A stretch of 64,000 nt of DNA from Chloroherpetonaceae bacterium (lineage in GTDB: Bacteria > Bacteroidota > Chlorobiia > Chlorobiales > Thermochlorobacteraceae), in assembly GCA_033763895.1 (NCBI GenBank), contig JANRJQ010000007.1, forward strand, positions 448,178-512,177, read 5' to 3'. Positions 2,399 to 52,738 of this stretch are shown one piece after another. Within the stretch, counting starts at the first letter, position 1. Every line of letters begins with the position of its first letter. Under the pieces are notes generated by a model. That model ran no database searches. It worked only from the letters and a program-made list of their open reading frames with translations, and was not told the origin of the DNA. The position numbers and the translations under genes were made by a program.

Positions 2399-3997
2399 AT
2401 GACAGAGTCACTCACCACCGTAAATTTTCAAATCACGGGAACTCAACCGGTACGGTATCAGCAAATCCTTACCCCTGAAGCAATACAATTTGTCATTTCG
2501 CTTCACGAGCGATTTAATGAACGCCGTTTATCTCTCCTTGAGAAAAGAATCCTTCGTCAAACCGAATTCGACAATGGCAAACTTCCCGATTTCCCTCTTA
2601 ATGCCGACGCCATTCGAAAGTCCGATTGGAAAGTAGCCCCACTACCGCCCGATTTACTTGACCGACGAGTTGAAATCACCGGCCCGGTTGACCGCAAAAT
2701 GATCATTAATGCTTTGAATTCAGGCGCAAAGGTGTTTATGGCTGATTTTGAAGACAGTAATTCTCCTTCTTGGGAAAATAATCTTGAAGGTCAACTCAAT
2801 CTTCGTGATGCCATTCGCGGTACCATTGAATTCACGAATCCCGAAAATGGAAAAATTTATCGACTGAACGAAAAAATTGCCACCCTCCTTGTTCGACCTC
2901 GCGGTTGGCATTTGGTTGAAAAGCACTTCTTGGTTGAAGAGTTACCCATCAGCGGCTCGCTCTTCGATTTTGGACTATACTTCTTCCATAATGCCCAAAC
3001 GCTGATTCAAAAAGGCAGCGGCCCATATTTCTATTTACCAAAATTGGAATCGGCAGAAGAAGCAAAACTTTGGAACGATGTTTTCCTCTTTGCGCAGTCT
3101 TCGCTTGGAATTCCATCTGGCACCATCAAAGCCACGGTTCTTGTTGAAACAATTCTTGCAACTTTTGAACTTGATGAAATTCTCTATGAACTTCGTGAAC
3201 ACTCTGCAGGGCTAAACTGCGGTCGTTGGGATTACATTTTTTCTTACATCAAAAAGTTCAGAAATAACCCGAAGTTTCTTTTGCCCGACCGCTCAAAGGT
3301 TACTATGACCACCGATTTTCTGAGAGCTTACAGCCGCCTTGTGATTAAAACTTGTCACAAACGCGGCGTTCACGCAATGGGCGGAATGGCCGCTCAAATC
3401 CCCATCAAAAATGATCCCGTTGCTAATGAAGCCGCCATCGAGCGCGTCAAAGCCGATAAGCTACGCGAAGTGCAAGATGGGCATGATGGGACTTGGGTTG
3501 CACACCCCGGTCTTGTCCCTGTGGCAATGGAAATTTTCAATACCTATATGCCTCAACCAAATCAGATTGAAAAGCAATTGCCGGATTTTGAACCAACTCG
3601 CGACTTATTGCTCCGTGCACCTGAAGGCACCATAACAGAAGCTGGGCTCCGAATGAATATCAATGTCGGCATTCTGTATATCGAAAGTTGGCTTCGGGGT
3701 GTTGGTGCCGCAGCAATTTACAACCTAATGGAAGACGCGGCAACCGCGGAAATTTCACGCACGCAAGTGTGGCAATGGATTCACCACCGAGCGGTGATGG
3801 AAAATGGAACAACGGTTACGCTAAATCTTTGCAAAAGATTGATGCAAGAAGAACTCTTGAAAATCAAAACCTATGTCGGCGAGGAAGCTTATCTCCACGG
3901 ACGATTTGTAGAGGCAACCGCCATTTTTATGGAGCTAATTGAATCATCAAAGTTTCAAGATTTTCTCACACTTTCTGCTTACGACAGGATTAATTAA
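2399..3997 (+). CDS. aceB: malate synthase A
   Basis: This enzyme condenses glyoxylate with acetyl-CoA to malate, the second step of the glyoxylate shunt. Family signatures are plain: the conserved block containing DFEDSNSPSWENN, the RPRGWH stretch, KLESAEEAKLW, the LVETILATFELDEI block and the C-terminal DGTWVAHPGLVPVA. From the ATG at 2399 it is 532 residues, almost exactly the length of Escherichia coli AceB. The frame continues 19 codons upstream to a TTG at 2342, but that codon falls inside the probable -7 promoter box, so the ATG is preferred. Isocitrate lyase follows 48 bp downstream in the same direction, forming an aceB-aceA operon. The divergent ScfR-like regulator probably controls both. 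Confidence 0.97.
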   Translation: MTESLTTVNFQITGTQPVRYQQILTPEAIQFVISLHERFNERRLSLLEKRILRQTEFDNGKLPDFPLNADAIRKSDWKVAPLPPDLLDRRVEITGPVDRKMIINALNSGAKVFMADFEDSNSPSWENNLEGQLNLRDAIRGTIEFTNPENGKIYRLNEKIATLLVRPRGWHLVEKHFLVEELPISGSLFDFGLYFFHNAQTLIQKGSGPYFYLPKLESAEEAKLWNDVFLFAQSSLGIPSGTIKATVLVETILATFELDEILYELREHSAGLNCGRWDYIFSYIKKFRNNPKFLLPDRSKVTMTTDFLRAYSRLVIKTCHKRGVHAMGGMAAQIPIKNDPVANEAAIERVKADKLREVQDGHDGTWVAHPGLVPVAMEIFNTYMPQPNQIEKQLPDFEPTRDLLLRAPEGTITEAGLRMNINVGILYIESWLRGVGAAAIYNLMEDAATAEISRTQVWQWIHHRAVMENGTTVTLNLCKRLMQEELLKIKTYVGEEAYLHGRFVEATAIFMELIESSKFQDFLTLSAYDRIN

Positions 3998-40398: not shown

Positions 40399-40430
40399 AA
40401 AAAAAAAGGCGCCTCTAATCGAAGCGCCTT
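40399..40430 (-). terminator. rho-independent terminator of the giant surface protein gene
   Basis: Stem AAGGCGC/GCGCCTT is followed, read leftward, by a run of nine T residues. It lies 19 bp past the gene's stop codon, a tight arrangement for a very long transcript. Confidence 0.85.
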
Positions 40431-40449: not shown

Positions 40450-43400
40450 TTATTTGATTAACATCATTTTCTTTACTGCATTGAAATCTCCACTTCTCAA
40501 GCGATAGAAGTAAACACCCGATGAAAGATTCAACCCATTAAATGAGTAACGATGTGCGCCTGCCTGCAGGTTTCCATCCACTAAAATTCCAACTTTTTGA
40601 CCCAGAACATTATAAACTTCAAGCGTTGTTCTCCCTGCTTGTTTCAATGAAAATTCTATGGTTGTCGCTGGATTAAATGGATTTGGATAATTTTGCGAAA
40701 GCGTGTATTCATCCGGCATTCTTACTGACACCACTTGGTGTTCAGTTACAACACCACCAAATGAAACATCAATTAACTTGTAGTAATAAGTTCTGCCTGC
40801 TTGCAATCTTGAATTGTCAATAAAACTGTATTCTTTACCTGTAGAATTTGTCCCTAATCCCTTGAGCGATTCAATGGTTCTGTAAGAAGCGATTTCTTCA
40901 AACCCGTCATTTTGATTTTCGGAACGCTTAACTATGAAACCTAAATTTTCAAATTCAGATCTTGTTCTCCATTGTATTGTAGTTGTTCTACCTTCAGTTG
41001 GTACCACCTTAAATTCTGCTAGTTCAACCGGCAATGGGTTATCCGCAGGATTAACAGTGCCTAATGCAAATGCATCTGTCTGTGTGAAAGTCACTGAACT
41101 TGTAATGGTTCCAGATGACTCATCACCTGTTTGTCCGCCGTCACCAAGGTTTTCCCAAGCTGAACTGGCAATATCTAAACTTGCCGCTCTTAAACTGTTT
41201 CTTTCGGTAGCAAATATTCCCCCAGCCGAAACAAAGTCATCAGCGTTCCAACTTAGCGTTACAGAACCGTTATTGTAGGTTCCTCCACCACTATTTGATA
41301 CAGCAAAATATCTCATAGACGAAACTTTGGATAAAGTTCCTAATGAGTAGGCAGGTGAACCCGCAGGAGCATTTGTATTCACTTGTCGTAGAGTGAATGA
41401 ATTTGAACCAGATACATGAGAAACGGTTAATTCAACCGGCAAATAGGATACGGCGAAGTTAAACCCATTCCAAGTATTTGCACGATGACCTGAAGGAAAT
41501 CTTCTTGTAACGCTCGGATTATTTGGATAATCAATTCGAACATTCCCTTCGACAAATGATGTTGTACTTCCGCCTATAATTGGTGTTCCGCTCGCGCCGT
41601 CACCATTGTCAGTATCGGTTAATCGAAGTGTCGCAGATGGTATGACAATAACGCCATTTGTAAGGTTCAAAGAGTTTGAAACAATCTGGTTGCTGTTTAT
41701 TGTCAAGTCTCCTGTAGTTTTATCCACAGTTAAATCATAGAAAGAGGTGACTTGGGAACCACTTATGGCTTGATTTACAGATGTACCAGAGAAAGTAACA
41801 TTAGAAGATCCTGAAGTAAAAGTGCCATTATTTACCCAACTTTCTGAAAGGGTAATTGAAGATATGTTCGAAGCATCGAAAGTACCGCTTGCACCTATTG
41901 TAACTGAATCCAAGTCAACTAAAGTCGCTGATTCACCTGCAAATAAAGTACCACTTGCAACATTGAGATCACCAACAATATTAGCATTTGAAGTGAACTC
42001 AACGGAATTTGTTGAACCTTGAATTGTCAAATTATTGAAGTTAAAATCAGGGGAAATTGCTGATCCAGAAATGACCTGTGAACCATTACCGTTAAATGTA
42101 TAGGTCCCTGTACCGGCATTGATATTACCATCATTAGTCAAGTTACCAGAAATTGCGATTCCATAAACCCCAGAATTTAATGTTCCAGCCGTAATAGTTA
42201 AATCATCAGTAACAGAAATTGAATCATTCAGAGTTAAGCTTTGACCTGCTTTATCAACATTTAATGCTCTAAATTGAGTGACACCCGTAATCGTTTGTTC
42301 ACCTGAAGTGCTGGTAAAAGTTACTGAGTGACCTGATGTAGAAGTTAAAACATTCGCTGCTGCATCATTTCTCCAATTTCCTCCCGATAAAGTTATTGTA
42401 TTTGCCCCAATATTAACAGGACCGGATGCACTTTGGATTCTAAAGTTACCACTAAGTGTAAGTGGTGCATTTATATTCTTTGTTGTTCCACCGTCTAAAG
42501 TCAAATTGTGGAAGTTTAAGGTGCCCCCTAAATTTTGTGTACCAACAGTTGCAGAAAACTCAACCAAACCAGCACGAGGTTCAAATGTGCCGTTATTTGT
42601 GTAATCGTCAAATATTTGAATCGAATAATTACCTGAATTGTTCGCATCAAGTGTTGTTAAACTTGCGATTTCAAAATCCGTCACAACAATATTCGAAGAC
42701 AATGTTTTAGTTCCGCCACCAGAGATAGTAACATCATTGTATGTGGTAGGTGTTGCGGGCAAATTATAGCTTGCCGTTGATGAGTAGTCCACTAAACCAC
42801 CGTTCGTAATATCAAAGAAAGTTGTTCCTGAAATTGTATAATTCGGGAAAGTACCTCTTAGTCTTAAAGTTCCATCGCCTGTGAGAGTCCCAAATGTATG
42901 ACCTGTTGTGTTATTGGTGGAAATATCAACAACTCCACTTCCAACAATTGAAAGTGACGCTGCACTTTGACCATTTGAATTCGTCGTTATTGTATGACCA
43001 GTCAAAACAGTCACATCAGTTACGCTTGTCGGAAATGTTCCCGCAGGTCCACCAGTTCCATCAAATGAAACCGTCCAAGAATTGACATCATCCCAATTTC
43101 CTCCTAAAGTTGCATTTCTGCTGTAAAGTGGTGGGGAGAATGCAGCCAATTCTCCGACAATCCACTCATAATTGATTCCAGTTGAAAATGCTACATTCGC
43201 TGTGTGACCTGCAATATCGCTTGCTGTATTGATTGTTGGTGAAGTTGGAGTTTGCCAGATTGCTCCATCGTAATAACGAACAACATAGTTTACTTCAGTA
43301 CCGTTAACTAAGCTATTACTATAAGTAAAGGTGTTTGTTGAATTAATGCTACCTGTACCTAAAACTTCGGTTTCAAAACTTTGTCCTAGTGCGCGCGATG

Positions 43401-46400
43401 TTATAAAGGCATTTGTGTATGAATTGTTTGGAGAAACAATTCTCACTGCAAATCCAGTAGGTGCGCCACTTGCAATTGACGCAGTTGTAACCGTATATGG
43501 ATTGTAATCTCCGCTAATACCAATTGGAAAGGTAAATGATAACTGGGCAGGAGTTGTACCGGTTCTTACAACTCTTGAGCCTGTTTCAGTTCCATCCATT
43601 AATATTTTTCTTGAAGAAGAAAATGGACCAGATGTCAATGCTGACGGTCCAAATGTGAAATTATTAGTTGTTCCGTTTAAGCGAACAAGACCGTTTGCAT
43701 TCATTGTAAAAGTATTGTTCACCGTTACAGGTGTTAAAATATCTAAGTTAAGTCCGGTTGCTTTTGTTATTGTTAGATTTGAGAATGTTACAGGATTATT
43801 TCCTCTTATTGTTTGATCAAGAGTAGAAGAAACAAAAGCTGTTGTCCCTGTAGCTGATGTAAATGTTCCGTTATTGACAAGATTTCCTTGCAAACGAAGT
43901 GTTCTTCCATTTACATCAAATGTTGAACCTAAAGCGATATTCAATGTATCTACATTGAGTATCATACTTGCTGTATTCAGTCGAACAATTCCAGTTCCTG
44001 TTAGATTTACATTTCGTAGTCTTAATTCATTAGTAACATTTGCTTTTGAGATCAACTGAATCCCTAATCCATTAAAGGTTACTGTTGAAGTACCAATTTG
44101 AACAAAACTTGTATCTCCAGCTGCTGTTCCATTTAAGGTTAAATTTCCGCCAATTGTAAGATTGTTGTTTTGAGTAAGCAATCTCGTATCAGCTTCTAAA
44201 GTGAGATTTCCTCGAACAACTGTTTCACCAATCATTCTCTTATTAATTGGTTGGGTATTCGTTGCTTGTCTAGATAAAACCAAGTTGCTGTAACCTCCAC
44301 CATTAGAAGAGTTTAGAGGTGCAATGTCTTGATTGGTTGTAGCGGTCGGGAAATTATACGTAACTGTTGAACCATCTTGAATGGAATAGGTTGCAAAGTT
44401 TCTTGGATAATTTCCGCTACCAGAAATGACAAGATTACCTGTTGAACCAAGGGTAAATGTTCCCCCCGAACCAGAGCGGTCAAATGCACTTGAAGTTTGC
44501 GCAATAGTAAGGGTTCCTGAAGCTACTGTTAAATTTCCAATTACACTTAAAATAGATCCATTAACAGTTTTATTTGATGTTCCTGAAATTTGAACATTAT
44601 TATAGGTTAAAGGTGAAGACGGAAGTGTATAATCTGTAGAACCACTGAATTCGACTGTTCCTCCTCCGCTTGCCAAAAATGAAGATTGGAGTTGTGGAAG
44701 AACATTGCTTTCAATTCTTAGTGTTCCAGTTCCAGAAATGCCTAGTCCAAAAGTTTGGGCTGATGCTGATGTAATGTTTAGTACACTACCTATTCTGATT
44801 TCAACAGAGGCAGCGGTTTTTACACCAGTAGAGATGTTCATTGTATGACCATCTCTAATAACAACAGGATTGGTTGATGTCGGTTCTGTATCAGATCCTA
44901 CATAGACAAATGATGTTGAGTCTGCTGACCAAGGACTTGTCGCCGGATCGTTCGTAGCAGCATCCCAAGATACAGAACCTCCAGACAAACCATTTCTCCA
45001 AGAGTAGAATATCACAGGATCAACAAATCCAGTACCTGCTGTAAAGAAATAATTTGTAAAGTTTCCTGTAGTGTTAAGTGTAAAGAAATTTGATCCTGAG
45101 TTTATTGTTCCTGTTGATGTTGTCCAAGTAAATCCATTGAAGATTCCTGTTTCATAAGATCCATCACCACCAACAGTAGGAACGTCTGTTTCCACCGCTA
45201 CATCAACATAATTGTAAGTATGTGATAAAATCACCCCGGCACCAAAACCTTCAACGGTAGTCTTCCAATTGTAATTTAATGAGGTTGAAGAAGCTGATGG
45301 ATATCTAGAGTTTGTAGGAGCAATTTGAACAGTACCTGCACCGTCCGCGGTTGTAACCGAGATACTAACTGGACGATAATAAGTGGCATCTGTAGAAAAT
45401 GGAAAAATGAAAGGAACAGTAACTGAATTCGGGAAAGCCCATCTTACTCCGGCAGAAGATGAACTTCCTGATGTTCGGACTGAACGTGATGCTGAAAAAA
45501 CTCCTCCTGTAATTGCAGTTGCTGAAGGATTATTAATTGACAGAAGGTTATCACCAATATTTAATAAACCATTCGTTAAGACCAATTGGTTATTTACAGC
45601 TAAATTACCTGTTGTAGAAACACTGGTAAATGTTGGTGATAATCTATTAATCGTTAAGTTATGGAAAGTCGCATTACCTAGTATTGATTGAGCAAAATCA
45701 TCTAAAACCCCAGCATCTGAATAAAACGTAACGTTAGCGTTTGAGAAATTGGCGTTGAAAGACCCTGAAGCAACATTTAATGTCCTTGTTACTGTTAAAC
45801 CACTGTTTGCTGCCAATTGAACACCTCCAGAGGTATTGAAAATTCTTAACCGTCTAACTACTAGGTTAGAGGCCGTAATTACTTGAGGATTAGTTTGTCC
45901 GGAAAGACCACTACCATTCATTTGAATTTGAGATCCACCAGTTGCGTCTGGCGCAAAACCTGACCGTATATAGCCGTTAAGAACAGTTAAGTTTCCACCA
46001 ACGACAAGTTCTGATAGAATATTTGTTGTTGAATCCGTTGCAAAATCTACCCGATTTAATCGAAATTGACCAGATAAATTTACGGTTAGATCATTAAGAA
46101 CAGTAAGTGTACCAGCGCCGTTGACATTTCCAATATTTCCAGTAAAATCTGTTCCATATCCAATAAAAAGATTCCAAAAAGGGACTGTTGAAGTTATTGC
46201 TACGTTGTCATTTCTTCCATTTACATTCATTGCAGAAGTTCCAATTCGTACATTTCCTCCCGTAACATTAAAAGTTGGTGAGGCACTAATACGAATAGCA
46301 GTATATGGAGAAGTCGCAGAGACTGTATGACTTCCTACAACTTCAAGATCTCCGCCACTCATATTAAATTGACTTGCTGAGCTATTCATTGTAAATGCAG

Positions 46401-49400
46401 CAACCGTACCCACAGAAGTATTATCCGTTGATTGTCTTCCTCTTTGAACCCTTACGATACCTCCGGATTGAGTATAGTTCAATGCTGCTCCAGTACCGGG
46501 TTGTATATTAGAAACAACATTTAAAGTACCATTAATCACAGTAAGAGAACTTCCTGTTCCCTCGTATGTTATTGAATTTTCTGATATACCGCTAAAATCA
46601 GTACCGACGTTTACCGTTCCAGATTCGATTCTTAAAGCTCCTCTTAAAATAAGCCCAGTACTAAATCCTGTTGCCCCAACATTCACGGTAGCATTAGCAT
46701 TTTCTACAGTTAATTGACCAGTTGTCGGTATCGTATAGTTCTCGTTGTCCGTGGATAAGTTAAGTGTGATACTTCCAGTTCCTCCGATTCTTAGATTTCC
46801 ATTAACAATTTCAATTGCCTTAACTGGCCCTGTGGTTGGACCATCGATTGAAAAATTTGTCGCGGTAACAAGAATTGACGGGGACTGAGATGTTCCTTTA
46901 TTAACAATAAAACGATTGAAACTATAGGAACCAGAACCAGAGATAACACCATTGCTCGTGCTTGTAAATGTTACATTACAAACTTGACTTCCATTAATGA
47001 AGTCTAAAGTACCTGAATTTTGAATGCTTCCTGAAATTGATAAAGTATTTGATAATACCGAAACTCCAGCCAAATTAAATGTTCCGTTGTTATTAATCGA
47101 GGCGGCAGTAATTGCTCGAGGTGTAGAACCACCATTAAAACTTAAAGTAGATCCTACACCTGTTGAAATTTCTCCACCAACTGTAATATTCCCAGAAGTA
47201 GCATTGCTGAAGAGCAATGTTGTTGTTCCGCTGACTTCAAGATTTCCTGAGAGAGTTAGGTTTGCGTCTGGTAAAGTTTTGGTACCACCTCCACTTGCTG
47301 CTAAAGTGTTATAAGTTGTCGGTGTTGAAGGGATAGTATATATTCCAGTACCACCGTATTCAATTCTGCCACCACTCGAACTTAAAAATGTGGTATAAGT
47401 TCCACCCGGGAATGCTGGTGGTGTTGAAGTGTTAGATTGTAACCTTAAGGTTCCTGTACCTGAAACGACACCAAAAGAATGACCTGTTGTGGCATTTGCA
47501 AGGGCGAGTGTTCCGCCTGATTGAATTTCTAAAGATGCAGATCTTAAGTTGCTAATGTTTGCCGTGACTACATTTGTACCACCGATAAAGACTGGCCTCC
47601 TAGAATTTGGCGTCGTACCGGCAACAGGTCCTCCGATACCAGTCGTAGACCAAGTGTTAGGATCAGTCCAATTTCCTGAAGCACGGCTGTAGTAAGTTAG
47701 AACCGCGCCGAAAGATGATGGCTCACCTGCAGTAAAATCGCCCGTGAGGTAATTAACTGAATTAAATACGATGGTTGAGTCTGATTCGTTAACCTGAGAA
47801 ACATCATTTATTCTTGACCAAACTACTGGAGAATATCTTGCCGGAATAAACGCTGTTTCAGCACCATTAATGATATCTGTTTTTCTGTATTGAAATGAAA
47901 GAGTAGAAACTGGTGAAGATAGTCCTGAATCTGATAAAGACCAATAATAAGAAAGTGCCAAAGAATCCGATGTCAGTGGATTTATTTCATTAACTCCCTT
48001 TACAGTCAAGGCTCCAAGCGTTGCACTAGCGGTAATGTTAACGGTTACAGGTGTATATTTATTGCTTACACCGATAGGATAGGTAAAGGATGCTGGAACA
48101 GACGCCCAAATTTTTCTTACTCCAACCGCCGACGGCGTTCCGTCAGTTTGAATCATTCTTAAGAAAGTTGAAGTTGCTGTTGCATTGGATACAGTAGCGG
48201 TACCGCCTAAAGTAAGTCTGGCAGTTCCAACTAAATTAAGAATTCGATTTTGTGATGTATTTTCAAATGTCAAGACCCCGTTGATGGTAAAATCTTGATT
48301 TGCATTTACAGTTACGGACGATGCTGGCCCATTGATTGACAGATTTGTAAAAGAACCCGTTCCGGTTAATTCGTGAGTTGTACTATTGACTAATTGAACA
48401 ACCCCAGTTCCGATTTGCGAGCCGTTGTTTACAGCATTTCCAGAAATTAGGAGAGAAAATGCACTTAAATCTAAAGTAGAACCCGAGGAAACAATTAAAC
48501 TATCAATTGTATAACTTGAAGCTAATGACAAGCTTTGACCACTTGACATTTCAACAATTAAATCTTTAGTTCCAACACCAGACCATTCAGTGGCTGTTGT
48601 TGTTTTAGAATTACCGGTATATCTGATTCTATAGTTCGTAATATTATCAATACTCCCTGTTAAAGAACCTGCAGAGCGGGACAAAGTCGAACCGTTAGAA
48701 AGTCTCAAATTCGACCCTGCCGAAAGGGTACTTGAATTAAGGAAAAGGGTATCGGTGACTTCATTAAGTGCGCTTAAGGTTTTTGTGCCGGTAGTTCCAC
48801 TTATAACCAAATTTGAAAAACTAGGGGGGGTAGTTGCATTTCTTGACCCTACAAGTTGATTTCCGTTTCCAGCATATTCAAAGTAACTTCCGGGAGAAAG
48901 TGTATAAGAGGCAAATGATAACGAGTCGCCGGGGAAATAATTGAAATTATTTGTATTTGTAACTATAAATCGTGAAGAAGACCCTAATGTAAAATTAAAA
49001 GTACCTGCACTTGACGGATTAAACCGATTTGAATTTGCTCTAAATTCACCCGCCGTTACTAACAAGTTTCCAACAACATATGATCTATTATTTGATAAAA
49101 TCGGCGCATTGGTTCTGTTTCCTCTGCTTATCCAATCTACAAAGCGATTAACCCCGGATGGATTGTTTACAACAACATTGCCTAAAACATTTGAAGCATC
49201 AACAAAGACTTGATAACCTTCTGAAGACCCTGAAGCAGAAGCGACGCCATTCCCAAATCTTAACTCTGTTCCGCTCAATACTGTCGGTTGAGCCCAACGA
49301 AAGCCAATGCTGTCGAGTGGAGGACCACTGAGTGCGGCATTTGTTGAGTCAAGAGGAGAATTTGCAAAAATTGAAACCGCGTATCCTGAACCCGAAAAAG

Positions 49401-52320
49401 CTGGTGGATTAATCAATGTTATCGTACCGCCTGTAAGATTGACTATACCTCGCTGTAATTGCAATACACTAAAAGAACCGGGGATATTTTGGTCAGTGTT
49501 GGGATTAATATTAAAACTTCCACCACTCATTTCAAAGGTTGCCTTTGCATCATTCAAAACGAACCTTCCATTAAGGTTGAATGTCCCCTGAAGCAATTGA
49601 AACAATTGACGCTGATCTGAAGATGTGCTTTTAAATTCCGGATCATTATTTCCATTACCTAAAGTAATTGTTGAGTTACCATCGCCTACATTGACAACAG
49701 CAGTTGCTCCATTTAGAATAAAATTGCTTCCCCCAACACCCGGATTAGCAGGAAAAGTAATATTATTTGTTCCATTGCTTAGCGCATTACCAATGTTTAG
49801 TGTCCCACCTGTAATATTAACGGTTGCGCCGATTCCGCCAAAAATATTCAATGATGCCCTAACATTGACGGTTCCTGATGCTAAAGAGAATTGCGCTCCA
49901 CCTTGTAAGCTAAGATTTCCTCGGTTTCCTCCTCCGATATTAAGCGTTCCTCCGTCAACATTAAGTGAACCCAGCGTTTCAATTTCTAAGAAGCTTCGCG
50001 ATGTTGGCGCAGGAAGTTCAGAAAGCGTATTCACACCGATGTTAAGGAAAGACCCTGAATTAAAATTCGCGACACCTGAAACGGTCGCCGCTGAAACCCC
50101 ACCCCCAAATAGGACATTTGCCATATTTGAATTTCCGAGAATTTCAAGGGTAGAGTTTGTTACATCTATCCCCCCAACCCCATTTATCCCAAAAACGACA
50201 AGATTGACGCTATTTACAGATGTCACGTTTTCATACATTCTCAAAGTAGAATTGGCAGATAAATTCACTTGAGAATTTCCCAAATTAGAATTTTGGGCAC
50301 CAGCAGAAATAAAAGAAGGATTTTGGGATACAACGATTAGTGAATTTGATACATTATAAGTCGTAGTGGCCGCTAGATCAGACGCTATTCCCAACCATCT
50401 ACCGTAAATACGGACAGTTGAATTGGTAACATTCATCGTTCTCGTAAAGGCGTTGTTTTGGTCAGCCGTTAAATTCCCTGTACTATCAGACGCATTTCCT
50501 ACCAATAGGGTACTGTTGGTAACATTAACTGTAGTATTTCCTCTAAAGAAAAAAGCTGATCCTGCAACAGTCAAATTACGACCAGTTCTAAAAGTAGCAC
50601 CTGATAAAACATTTAATGTGCAACCTCCACCAGCTGTTGTTCCGCTTAGAAAATATTCAGAGATATTAATTTCTGACCCTGAACCAGTGACTGTTATAAC
50701 TCCCGATCCCGGTGTATCTTGATCACAAACAAATCTTCCAAACCCGAGCGTAGGATGACCAATATTTAAAACTCCTCCACCTGAGACTGTGAGGGTTGAG
50801 GTACCTCTTAAATAAAAAGCAGAAAAAACTGCACTAAGATTCTGTGCGATATTAACAACTGCACCATTTGTAATGTTAATGTTTGTACCATTGCCGGCAG
50901 CAGTTCCTGATATAAGATATTCCGAAATGGTTAGAGTTGACCCTGCGCCGTCAACATTTAGTGTTGCTGTAATCGGAGTATCGGCATCAGCGACCAAACG
51001 CCCAAAAACACCTGTAGAACTCCCAACTTCAACATCTCCGCCAGTATTAATATTCAGCGCGGAACCGCCTCTTAAATAAAGTAAATCAGCAACAGCTGTT
51101 CTCGAAGGCCCCACTCTTAATAAACCTGAGTTGGTCACGTTTGTCGTCGCAGCGATACTTCCTCCTGTTCCGGAAACATATCTACCAGATTGAATAAGGG
51201 AAGAAGTTCCATTGACTGTAACCGTACCTCCTGCATCCAATCGAATATCTCCAAAAACACCATTTCCAACTAACAATTGACCACCATTTTGAACTGTAAT
51301 CACTGAACTTGTGACGCCGGTAAGAAGCTTCGACTGATTTGCGGTTGTATTATTTTGCCCAACTCGCACAATCGCCGAAGAACCATCAATAGTAAGTGAT
51401 GCACCATTAAGAGTTAAGTTAATGGCATTATCACCGGGCGCAAAATTCATTTCACCTTGAAGAACCACAATTGACCGGTTAACCCCTAAAGTAATTGAAC
51501 CTGCGCTATTGTAATTATAAACAGCACTATTATTGTGGCGATACTCACCAAGTGTAAAAGTTGTTCGATCGAAAGGAATTGCTGTGGTAAACGCGGTCGA
51601 ATTATTGATGATTCTATTATTGGGCGATGTTCCCGTGTTATTAAAAGTAATAGTCCCGGCTGTTGTTCCCCCAATAGTAACAGTCCCACCAAGTGAAATG
51701 GTTTGGTTTAGAGCTCCATTAAAAGTTATGTTATTAAAACTTGAAATGCCGCTTCCAGCTAAATCTCCTCTTAAAACTAAATTAACGACATCAAAATTAA
51801 CTCCGTCAGCATTTCTTAGGGTTAAAGTACCGTTATTTGTCAAGTTTCCAGAAGTCAAAGTATGAGTGTCAGCCCCACCATCAGGGGTTGTATTGCTTGA
51901 AAAAATAGTACCTCCGATAGAAACAGTGGTTGCACCTGTAACGGTAATTGCCCTTCCGCTTGTATTATCAAAGCGCAATTCCCCTGAAACTCCTTCACCG
52001 ACTTGAAAAGATCCTAATGGTTGAGCTGGAGAAACATTTAGTGTTACAATATGACCATCACGAATCGTCACTAAACCCGTACCAGCATTTTGACCCGGGT
52101 AACCTTCTGCCGGATTTGACACCCAAATCGTTCCGTTGTAGCGTTCCCAACTTGCCGTTGTTGTCCAAGTAAAAGAAGCCGCATTGGTGCGATAATCCCC
52201 TATTGCCTGTGCCAAAAGATCACCTATCATTACTGTATTTGCAAGTACCAGCAAAGAGAAGGTTAAGAAAAATGAAAAAATACTCCCAGCAGTAAAGAAA
52301 CGAGGAAAGCGAGAATTCAT
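40450..52320 (-). CDS. giant modular T9SS-exported surface protein
   Basis: From the ATG at 52320 the protein is 3956 residues. It starts with a signal peptide (FPRFFTAGSIFSFFLTFSLL, ending near LLAQA); an ATG 31 codons earlier would bury that signal. It ends in a T9SS type A sorting domain of about 85 residues (QNYPNPFNPATTIEF, VYNVLGQKV, SSGVYFYRLRSGD). Between lie Gly/Ser/Thr/Asn-rich beta-solenoid-like repeats in four modules, opening near residues 40, 1540, 2440 and 3060. Each opens with a W-rich GNW/sW segment and GHT-type motif, and each ends with an FP(I/S)G or FPF domain. A fibronectin-like segment (SEFENLGFIVKRS) precedes the sorting domain. Few cysteines are present. Adhesion or surface-layer function is inferred. 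The gene is monocistronic, with its own terminator. Confidence 0.9.
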   Translation of the reverse strand: MNSRFPRFFTAGSIFSFFLTFSLLVLANTVMIGDLLAQAIGDYRTNAASFTWTTTASWERYNGTIWVSNPAEGYPGQNAGTGLVTIRDGHIVTLNVSPAQPLGSFQVGEGVSGELRFDNTSGRAITVTGATTVSIGGTIFSSNTTPDGGADTHTLTSGNLTNNGTLTLRNADGVNFDVVNLVLRGDLAGSGISSFNNITFNGALNQTISLGGTVTIGGTTAGTITFNNTGTSPNNRIINNSTAFTTAIPFDRTTFTLGEYRHNNSAVYNYNSAGSITLGVNRSIVVLQGEMNFAPGDNAINLTLNGASLTIDGSSAIVRVGQNNTTANQSKLLTGVTSSVITVQNGGQLLVGNGVFGDIRLDAGGTVTVNGTSSLIQSGRYVSGTGGSIAATTNVTNSGLLRVGPSRTAVADLLYLRGGSALNINTGGDVEVGSSTGVFGRLVADADTPITATLNVDGAGSTLTISEYLISGTAAGNGTNINITNGAVVNIAQNLSAVFSAFYLRGTSTLTVSGGGVLNIGHPTLGFGRFVCDQDTPGSGVITVTGSGSEINISEYFLSGTTAGGGCTLNVLSGATFRTGRNLTVAGSAFFFRGNTTVNVTNSTLLVGNASDSTGNLTADQNNAFTRTMNVTNSTVRIYGRWLGIASDLAATTTYNVSNSLIVVSQNPSFISAGAQNSNLGNSQVNLSANSTLRMYENVTSVNSVNLVVFGINGVGGIDVTNSTLEILGNSNMANVLFGGGVSAATVSGVANFNSGSFLNIGVNTLSELPAPTSRSFLEIETLGSLNVDGGTLNIGGGNRGNLSLQGGAQFSLASGTVNVRASLNIFGGIGATVNITGGTLNIGNALSNGTNNITFPANPGVGGSNFILNGATAVVNVGDGNSTITLGNGNNDPEFKSTSSDQRQLFQLLQGTFNLNGRFVLNDAKATFEMSGGSFNINPNTDQNIPGSFSVLQLQRGIVNLTGGTITLINPPAFSGSGYAVSIFANSPLDSTNAALSGPPLDSIGFRWAQPTVLSGTELRFGNGVASASGSSEGYQVFVDASNVLGNVVVNNPSGVNRFVDWISRGNRTNAPILSNNRSYVVGNLLVTAGEFRANSNRFNPSSAGTFNFTLGSSSRFIVTNTNNFNYFPGDSLSFASYTLSPGSYFEYAGNGNQLVGSRNATTPPSFSNLVISGTTGTKTLSALNEVTDTLFLNSSTLSAGSNLRLSNGSTLSRSAGSLTGSIDNITNYRIRYTGNSKTTTATEWSGVGTKDLIVEMSSGQSLSLASSYTIDSLIVSSGSTLDLSAFSLLISGNAVNNGSQIGTGVVQLVNSTTHELTGTGSFTNLSINGPASSVTVNANQDFTINGVLTFENTSQNRILNLVGTARLTLGGTATVSNATATSTFLRMIQTDGTPSAVGVRKIWASVPASFTYPIGVSNKYTPVTVNITASATLGALTVKGVNEINPLTSDSLALSYYWSLSDSGLSSPVSTLSFQYRKTDIINGAETAFIPARYSPVVWSRINDVSQVNESDSTIVFNSVNYLTGDFTAGEPSSFGAVLTYYSRASGNWTDPNTWSTTGIGGPVAGTTPNSRRPVFIGGTNVVTANISNLRSASLEIQSGGTLALANATTGHSFGVVSGTGTLRLQSNTSTPPAFPGGTYTTFLSSSGGRIEYGGTGIYTIPSTPTTYNTLAASGGGTKTLPDANLTLSGNLEVSGTTTLLFSNATSGNITVGGEISTGVGSTLSFNGGSTPRAITAASINNNGTFNLAGVSVLSNTLSISGSIQNSGTLDFINGSQVCNVTFTSTSNGVISGSGSYSFNRFIVNKGTSQSPSILVTATNFSIDGPTTGPVKAIEIVNGNLRIGGTGSITLNLSTDNENYTIPTTGQLTVENANATVNVGATGFSTGLILRGALRIESGTVNVGTDFSGISENSITYEGTGSSLTVINGTLNVVSNIQPGTGAALNYTQSGGIVRVQRGRQSTDNTSVGTVAAFTMNSSASQFNMSGGDLEVVGSHTVSATSPYTAIRISASPTFNVTGGNVRIGTSAMNVNGRNDNVAITSTVPFWNLFIGYGTDFTGNIGNVNGAGTLTVLNDLTVNLSGQFRLNRVDFATDSTTNILSELVVGGNLTVLNGYIRSGFAPDATGGSQIQMNGSGLSGQTNPQVITASNLVVRRLRIFNTSGGVQLAANSGLTVTRTLNVASGSFNANFSNANVTFYSDAGVLDDFAQSILGNATFHNLTINRLSPTFTSVSTTGNLAVNNQLVLTNGLLNIGDNLLSINNPSATAITGGVFSASRSVRTSGSSSSAGVRWAFPNSVTVPFIFPFSTDATYYRPVSISVTTADGAGTVQIAPTNSRYPSASSTSLNYNWKTTVEGFGAGVILSHTYNYVDVAVETDVPTVGGDGSYETGIFNGFTWTTSTGTINSGSNFFTLNTTGNFTNYFFTAGTGFVDPVIFYSWRNGLSGGSVSWDAATNDPATSPWSADSTSFVYVGSDTEPTSTNPVVIRDGHTMNISTGVKTAASVEIRIGSVLNITSASAQTFGLGISGTGTLRIESNVLPQLQSSFLASGGGTVEFSGSTDYTLPSSPLTYNNVQISGTSNKTVNGSILSVIGNLTVASGTLTIAQTSSAFDRSGSGGTFTLGSTGNLVISGSGNYPRNFATYSIQDGSTVTYNFPTATTNQDIAPLNSSNGGGYSNLVLSRQATNTQPINKRMIGETVVRGNLTLEADTRLLTQNNNLTIGGNLTLNGTAAGDTSFVQIGTSTVTFNGLGIQLISKANVTNELRLRNVNLTGTGIVRLNTASMILNVDTLNIALGSTFDVNGRTLRLQGNLVNNGTFTSATGTTAFVSSTLDQTIRGNNPVTFSNLTITKATGLNLDILTPVTVNNTFTMNANGLVRLNGTTNNFTFGPSALTSGPFSSSRKILMDGTETGSRVVRTGTTPAQLSFTFPIGISGDYNPYTVTTASIASGAPTGFAVRIVSPNNSYTNAFITSRALGQSFETEVLGTGSINSTNTFTYSNSLVNGTEVNYVVRYYDGAIWQTPTSPTINTASDIAGHTANVAFSTGINYEWIVGELAAFSPPLYSRNATLGGNWDDVNSWTVSFDGTGGPAGTFPTSVTDVTVLTGHTITTNSNGQSAASLSIVGSGVVDISTNNTTGHTFGTLTGDGTLRLRGTFPNYTISGTTFFDITNGGLVDYSSTASYNLPATPTTYNDVTISGGGTKTLSSNIVVTDFEIASLTTLDANNSGNYSIQIFDDYTNNGTFEPRAGLVEFSATVGTQNLGGTLNFHNLTLDGGTTKNINAPLTLSGNFRIQSASGPVNIGANTITLSGGNWRNDAAANVLTSTSGHSVTFTSTSGEQTITGVTQFRALNVDKAGQSLTLNDSISVTDDLTITAGTLNSGVYGIAISGNLTNDGNINAGTGTYTFNGNGSQVISGSAISPDFNFNNLTIQGSTNSVEFTSNANIVGDLNVASGTLFAGESATLVDLDSVTIGASGTFDASNISSITLSESWVNNGTFTSGSSNVTFSGTSVNQAISGSQVTSFYDLTVDKTTGDLTINSNQIVSNSLNLTNGVIVIPSATLRLTDTDNGDGASGTPIIGGSTTSFVEGNVRIDYPNNPSVTRRFPSGHRANTWNGFNFAVSYLPVELTVSHVSGSNSFTLRQVNTNAPAGSPAYSLGTLSKVSSMRYFAVSNSGGGTYNNGSVTLSWNADDFVSAGGIFATERNSLRAASLDIASSAWENLGDGGQTGDESSGTITSSVTFTQTDAFALGTVNPADNPLPVELAEFKVVPTEGRTTTIQWRTRSEFENLGFIVKRSENQNDGFEEIASYRTIESLKGLGTNSTGKEYSFIDNSRLQAGRTYYYKLIDVSFGGVVTEHQVVSVRMPDEYTLSQNYPNPFNPATTIEFSLKQAGRTTLEVYNVLGQKVGILVDGNLQAGAHRYSFNGLNLSSGVYFYRLRSGDFNAVKKMMLIK
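50395..51085 (-). repeat. tandem repeats of about 87 codons inside the giant gene
   Basis: Three successive copies can be aligned by eye. They begin LRGGSALNINTGG, LRGTSTLTVSGGG and FRGNTTVNVTNST. The first two also share FGR, DTP, ISEY and SGTTAG/SGTAAG. Copies 1 and 2 are about 260 bp each and copy 3 is partial and diverged. They are coding repeats, not a CRISPR array. Confidence 0.7.
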
Positions 52321-52738
52321 ATCGGAATGATTAGTATTGAAAATAGAAACTTGTTCGACTTGAGCAGCAGAGAAAGGCGTATTTATTTGAGGAACTTGAT
52401 AGCGCTGAACCATATTTTAATTCTAGAATTAAAGGCAAAAAAATTATGTTAAGTGGCTTCTTAGGTGGCTCAGGCGATGAATGATTCATTAACTGAGCAA
52501 ATTTAAGAACTTTCTTAATCAAAAGTGAACCCAAAATCACAAACTGTGACTTGCTATACAACTTTAAGACCTGAACTGAAATGAGATAAATATCCTTAAC
52601 GTGCAGGCTGTTTCAAAGTTATTGACAAATGTGTAAAAAATTGGGTTTGACCTAACTCACTAAAAATACAAAAAAAATAAGGAAAAAAGAAGTTGAGAGA
52701 TAAATTTTCAACTACAGCCTCAGAAACTTAATCCCGAT
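52321..52738. promoter_or_regulatory. leader/intergenic region of the giant gene with an 18-bp palindrome
   Basis: These 418 bp between nnr and the preferred start of the giant gene hold no convincing gene. TTTAATTCTAGAATTAAA at 52416-52433 is a perfect palindrome 96 bp upstream of the start and could be an operator. No clear -7 TAnnTTTG box was identified. If the ATG at 52413 were used instead, the palindrome would touch the start codon. Confidence 0.45.

Follow-up and report, generated by a model that had tools for sequence, protein, structure and literature searches.

What does an exported chain of nearly four thousand residues do for a bacterium, and how did so long a chain come to be built? 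Both questions are raised by one gene in the window, the 64,000-nucleotide stretch of Chloroherpetonaceae DNA analysed here. The first-pass annotation had read its product as a T9SS surface protein of four duplicated modules, possibly a giant adhesin, an S-layer-like filament or a gliding-related fibre.

An intact gene that appears to stand alone

The giant gene was found as a single uninterrupted open reading frame on the minus strand (window 40450–52413), 3987 aa long when counted from the first ATG. Met32 (window 52320) is a likelier start than this ATG and opens a plausible signal peptide; counted from there, the protein has the 3956 residues that had been annotated, in one intact frame. 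The putative signal peptide covers residues 32–70 (52204–52320, minus strand; ...SFFLTFSLLVLANTVMIGDLLAQA) and shows, as read by eye, a hydrophobic core and an AQA site. In the G003 homologue, ...SANAQA precedes a mature start, (I/V)GDYR, that is shared with the window protein. T/S/G/N make up 47% of the giant protein and Cys 0.1%.

The gene has housekeeping neighbours: upstream lies that for a YjeF-type NAD(P)H-hydrate repair enzyme, and downstream lie those for thioredoxin and a thioredoxin-reductase-like protein. About 20 bases 3′ of the stop codon lies an intrinsic-terminator-like hairpin of 10 pairs plus a T run (40406–40430, minus strand), the strongest such site in a consensus scan in which terminator-like sites overall occurred at the shuffled rate. 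Given this strong hairpin and these neighbours, the giant gene appears to stand alone. A conserved neighbourhood was also sought, and none of the nine window neighbour genes was present in the loci of five relatives; a tblastn search against plasmids gave no match for the giant protein. An assembly artefact is unlikely, because three relatives hold long open frames of the same protein (3014, 3132 and 3140 aa).

Four homologous modules of unequal length

In each of the four modules a beta-solenoid stands between an opening and a closing domain; C-terminal to the array come an Fn3-like segment and the T9SS sorting domain, which is of type A. A single self-BLAST run of the whole protein listed no off-diagonal match, and the modules were therefore compared pairwise. 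BLASTP then aligned modules 2 and 4 at E 3e-23 (92 bits), 3 and 4 at 8e-23, 2 and 3 at 9e-17, and 1 and 3 at 5e-16, while the top score among 50 shuffled pairs was 24.6 bits. The off-diagonal similarity expected of homologous modules was thus recovered, and the annotated four modules were confirmed, with solenoid strands supported.

Iterated HMMs built from the modules defined opening and closing domains, of about 200 and about 175 aa respectively, which alternate along the protein (O-C-O-C-O-C-O-C) with solenoid sequence in between. All modules lie on the minus strand and were delimited by BLASTP and HMM, with a structural model in addition for modules 1 and 3 and trees for module 4. Module 1 (residues 72–1563; 47725–52200) holds opening domain 78–278 and closing domain 1393–1563, and module 2 (residues 1575–2460; 45034–47691) holds opening domain 1575–1771 and closing domain 2284–2460. 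Module 3 (residues 2470–3087; 43153–45006) runs from opening domain 2470–2676 to closing domain 2912–3087, and module 4 (residues 3097–3791; 41041–43125) from opening domain 3097–3278 to closing domain 3589–3791, the latter of the type that stands last in relatives. The opening domain of module 1 is the most diverged of the four and was matched weakly (29 bits); it is considered real because its G003 counterpart is 59% identical. The unequal module lengths that had been annotated were upheld, with the figures corrected from 1500, 900, 620 and 560 to about 1490, 890, 620 and 695 aa, and the reported motif strings (W-rich, GHT, SGGGTKTL) are not all literally present in every module.

Many sites along the solenoids were also matched by the latter half of the opening-domain HMM, indicating that the opening domain and the solenoid share a repeat. 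Autocorrelation of hydrophobic and of Gly/Asn residues gave only weak periods; many were near the 2-sd noise level, and the strongest (25 aa) came from the latter half of module 1. We therefore assign no coil length. Among named domains, the W-rich opening domain resembles G8 (PF10162), which gave weak matches in 4 of 10 opening-domain sequences (best 1.8e-4) and 5.8e-7 in one longer module, and no match in the whole window protein, opening domain 2 or module 3. The solenoid repeat of module 1 resembles TIGR04393 (T5SS/PEP-CTERM-associated repeat) at residues 482–521, with 20.7–22.5 bits, just below the cut-off of 23; this repeat was not found in module 1 of four relatives. The fibronectin-like segment was retained as a sequence pattern at residues 3792–3905 (40699–41040, minus strand; LPVELAEF...IQWRTRSEFENLGFIVKRS), and had no match in the Pfam scan.

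Secretion route, distribution and the gliding question

The C-terminal sorting domain (residues 3909–3984; 40462–40689, minus strand) scored 40.2 bits with TIGR04183 (cut-off 23) and 38 bits with PF18962 (cut-off 27). In the bacterium's own genome (G000; 3.55 Mb, 14 contigs), SprA (1302 bits), PorV (281 bits) and PorU (924 bits) were all matched above curated cut-offs. The annotation as a T9SS surface protein is therefore supported, with the surface location predicted. The giant gene is the longest open frame among the 62 type-A sorting-domain matches of this genome. It resembles other T9SS type-A cargo in its putative signal peptide, its sorting domain and the presence of the machinery, and differs in its great length and in having four repeats of a module that belongs to no named family. 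The giant protein adds a very large member to a known class, the T9SS-exported beta-solenoid surface proteins. Apart from the one full PorV, the same genome gave several weak PorV-like matches that stayed below cut-off.

The FMO antenna protein is encoded in this genome, as in 7 of 7 relatives tested, which places it among the phototrophic Chlorobiales. Sixty relatives were searched, 11 in families f1, f2 and f3 and 49 in family f4, which we infer to be the Chlorobiaceae. The giant protein was matched in all 11 of the former, although in several of them the match was confined to the shared C-terminal region, and in 1 of the 49 f4 genomes, by a single marginal match. All f1–f3 relatives tested for SprA carry it, whereas the SprA, PorV and PorU profiles gave no match in the two f4 genomes tested. 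The distribution of the giant protein thus agrees with that of the secretion system: one section of the phototrophic Chlorobiales has T9SS together with many surface proteins, and the two tested f4 members are without them. This split bears on the divide between gliding and non-motile green sulfur bacteria. According to PMC9318685, the Chlorobiaceae are non-motile, gliding occurs in Chloroherpeton, and both gliding and flexing are attributed to Candidatus Thermochlorobacter.

On a rival reading the giant protein would be a gliding adhesin, a fibre that the T9SS motor moves over the cell surface and that thereby pulls the cell, as SprB does in Flavobacterium. T9SS and the giant protein do fall on one side of the apparent divide. 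Moreover, the protein shares large size, repetitiveness and T9SS export with the SprB-like adhesins of Bacteroidota, a likeness of general character. However, GldL and GldM profiles gave nothing above cut-off in G000, G001, G003, G009, G010 and G012 (one marginal GldL match of 20.6 bits was seen in G003), yet matched in the Bacteroidales control G061; SprA, PorV and PorU are present in all of these Chlorobi genomes. The silence may reflect divergence rather than absence of GldL/GldM, and the T9SS motor of these Chlorobi would be either strongly diverged or replaced. No gliding gene was found among the scanned neighbours of the giant gene. Furthermore, G009, which we take to be Chloroherpeton thalassium, a glider, is without the module array and has a different giant of 3968 aa. 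The annotated gliding role therefore fits the distribution of T9SS but not this presumed glider, and it is considered unlikely. It is very improbable that the protein serves as the long surface fibre of T9SS gliding or flexing in phototrophic Chlorobi without recognisable GldL/GldM, with module number tuning its reach.

Predicted fold and a proposed adhesive fibre

Structures were predicted for modules 1 and 3, and both models were all-beta. The module 3 model (11-row alignment) reached a mean pLDDT of 77 and a pTM of 0.80, its opening domain and solenoid being more confident than its closing domain. The module 1 model (residues 72–1252) was solenoid-like, with a mean pLDDT of 60 and a pTM of 0.50. 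A sequence search of the PDB gave no match for the giant protein, and a fold search of the PDB with module 3 gave none at E≤0.001. With module 1, the sole fold match below 0.001 was the TibA passenger (6.5e-4, probability 0.99), and Ag43 entries came next. The TM-scores of this weak model to TibA and Ag43 were low (0.11–0.29), so these matches indicate a fold class, the autotransporter-type beta-helix, not homology.

Ag43 is presented in PMC6668479 as a self-associating autotransporter adhesin that works by a Velcro-like handshake. The giant protein would share a beta-solenoid passenger with the self-associating autotransporters Ag43 and TibA (SAATs), which are the best solved-structure matches of module 1. 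Each of the two carries its own type-V barrel, whereas the giant protein uses T9SS; no such barrel was found in Pfam/NCBIfam scans, and the C-terminus is the T9SS domain. The giant protein is also several times longer, with closing domains interleaved, and the likeness extends to the fold class only.

Of the three roles that had been suggested, adhesion fits best. We assign a probability of roughly 0.6 to the reading that the giant protein is a secreted, surface-anchored, rod-like adhesin, forming a rigid fibre for cell-cell or surface adhesion. This reading draws on the intact frame, the signal peptide and sorting domain, the T9SS of the same genome and the distribution that matches it. It draws likewise on the all-beta models, the TibA/Ag43 fold matches, the composition rich in T/S/G/N and poor in Cys, and the finding of no enzyme domain in domain-family scans of the whole protein and the modules. 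The signal peptide seen in the sequence would direct Sec export; the sorting domain would then be recognised by T9SS, with passage via SprA and cleavage and anchoring by PorU/PorV, whose genes are present. Outside the cell, the chain is predicted to fold into four beta-solenoid segments, each with a cap-like domain opening it and a beta-rich domain closing it, giving a stiff fibre that is probably tens of nanometres long. The long N-terminal module 1 would lie farthest from the anchored C-terminus and could touch neighbouring cells, matrix or sheath through lateral beta-helix contacts, holding cells together or to surfaces. How far the fibre reaches would depend on the number of modules, which would change by insertion of whole closing-plus-opening units.

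Two other readings were weighed. Beta-helices are carried also by polysaccharide lyases and tailspikes, and right-handed beta-helix lyases (PL6, PL3) and tailspikes were indeed among the fold matches; module 1 may hold an enzymatic segment. For the protein as a whole, however, a role on mat polysaccharide, either as a beta-helix enzyme or as a scaffold that binds carbohydrate, is quite unlikely, because the lyase fold matches were weak and ranked after the autotransporter adhesins, and no lyase or CBM family match was obtained in any module. The annotated S-layer-like filament, a structural coat sheathing the cell, would suit a large, low-Cys, T/S/G/N-rich beta protein, and an RsaA entry appeared far down the fold list of module 3. 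On the other hand, this match had an E of 0.3, no S-layer anchor domain was found in Pfam/NCBIfam scans, and the gene is one of the 62 with T9SS sorting domains, so that the filament found no support and is regarded as very unlikely.

Old modules and an additional closing-plus-opening unit

Module numbers were compared between the window protein and its homologues. Three closing domains are present in G003 (3132 aa), in G012 (3140 aa) and in G001 (3014 aa plus an upstream fragment), and likewise in G006 and G004, which are on broken contigs; the relatives thus have three modules and the window protein four. Residues 72–1252 of module 1 are 33–45% identical to four relatives. In trees, closing domain 4 of the window protein grouped with the last closing domains of relatives (100/100) and closing domain 1 with the first of G012 (97/96). 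An AU test rejected closing domain 3 as the counterpart of the last one in relatives (p 0.0007). Support in the opening-domain tree was weak: opening domain 3 grouped with the third opening domain of relatives in a wider tree (100/97), a grouping that a smaller tree does not resolve. Opening domain 3 as the relatives' last was allowed (p 0.43), and opening domain 4 in that place was marginally disfavoured (p 0.07).

Recent duplication of the modules received no support from the trees. Because the modules match those of relatives by position, the duplication is old; the annotated origin by duplication followed by growth or shrinkage thus holds for homology and unequal lengths and is refined in its age. 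On the simplest reading of these trees of short, diverged domains, a three-module form would already have existed before families f1 and f2 diverged. The window protein has an extra unit made up of closing domain 3 and opening domain 4 (42580–43680, minus strand, limits approximate), delimited by trees and AU tests, that is absent from the three-module relatives and is the only lineage-specific change seen; it was probably inserted in the window's lineage. The locus offers a clear example of how a giant secreted beta-solenoid may grow, with old, positionally stable modules and an occasional insertion of a whole closing-plus-opening unit.

Ignavibacteria and one Bacteroidales genome were also found to carry module arrays, of more distant relationship, whose open reading frames hold three to seven closing domains each. 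The Ignavibacteria arrays (L034:5180-15604, L034:15679-17874 and L036:9014-21238) have no T9SS sorting domain at their end; they close with a common short motif, NN..I.N.G.I.I.[Q/E], followed by the stop, and adjoin further unnamed genes. A second giant family (L044:5069-16972 and L040:3-6872; 3968 aa in G009 and about 3956 aa in G012) has opening-type repeats without a closing domain, and its G012 member adjoins the three-module homologue of that genome. The 3132-aa homologue of G003 is directly followed by a paralogue of 1495 aa (L038:11557-16041) that has a T9SS tail.
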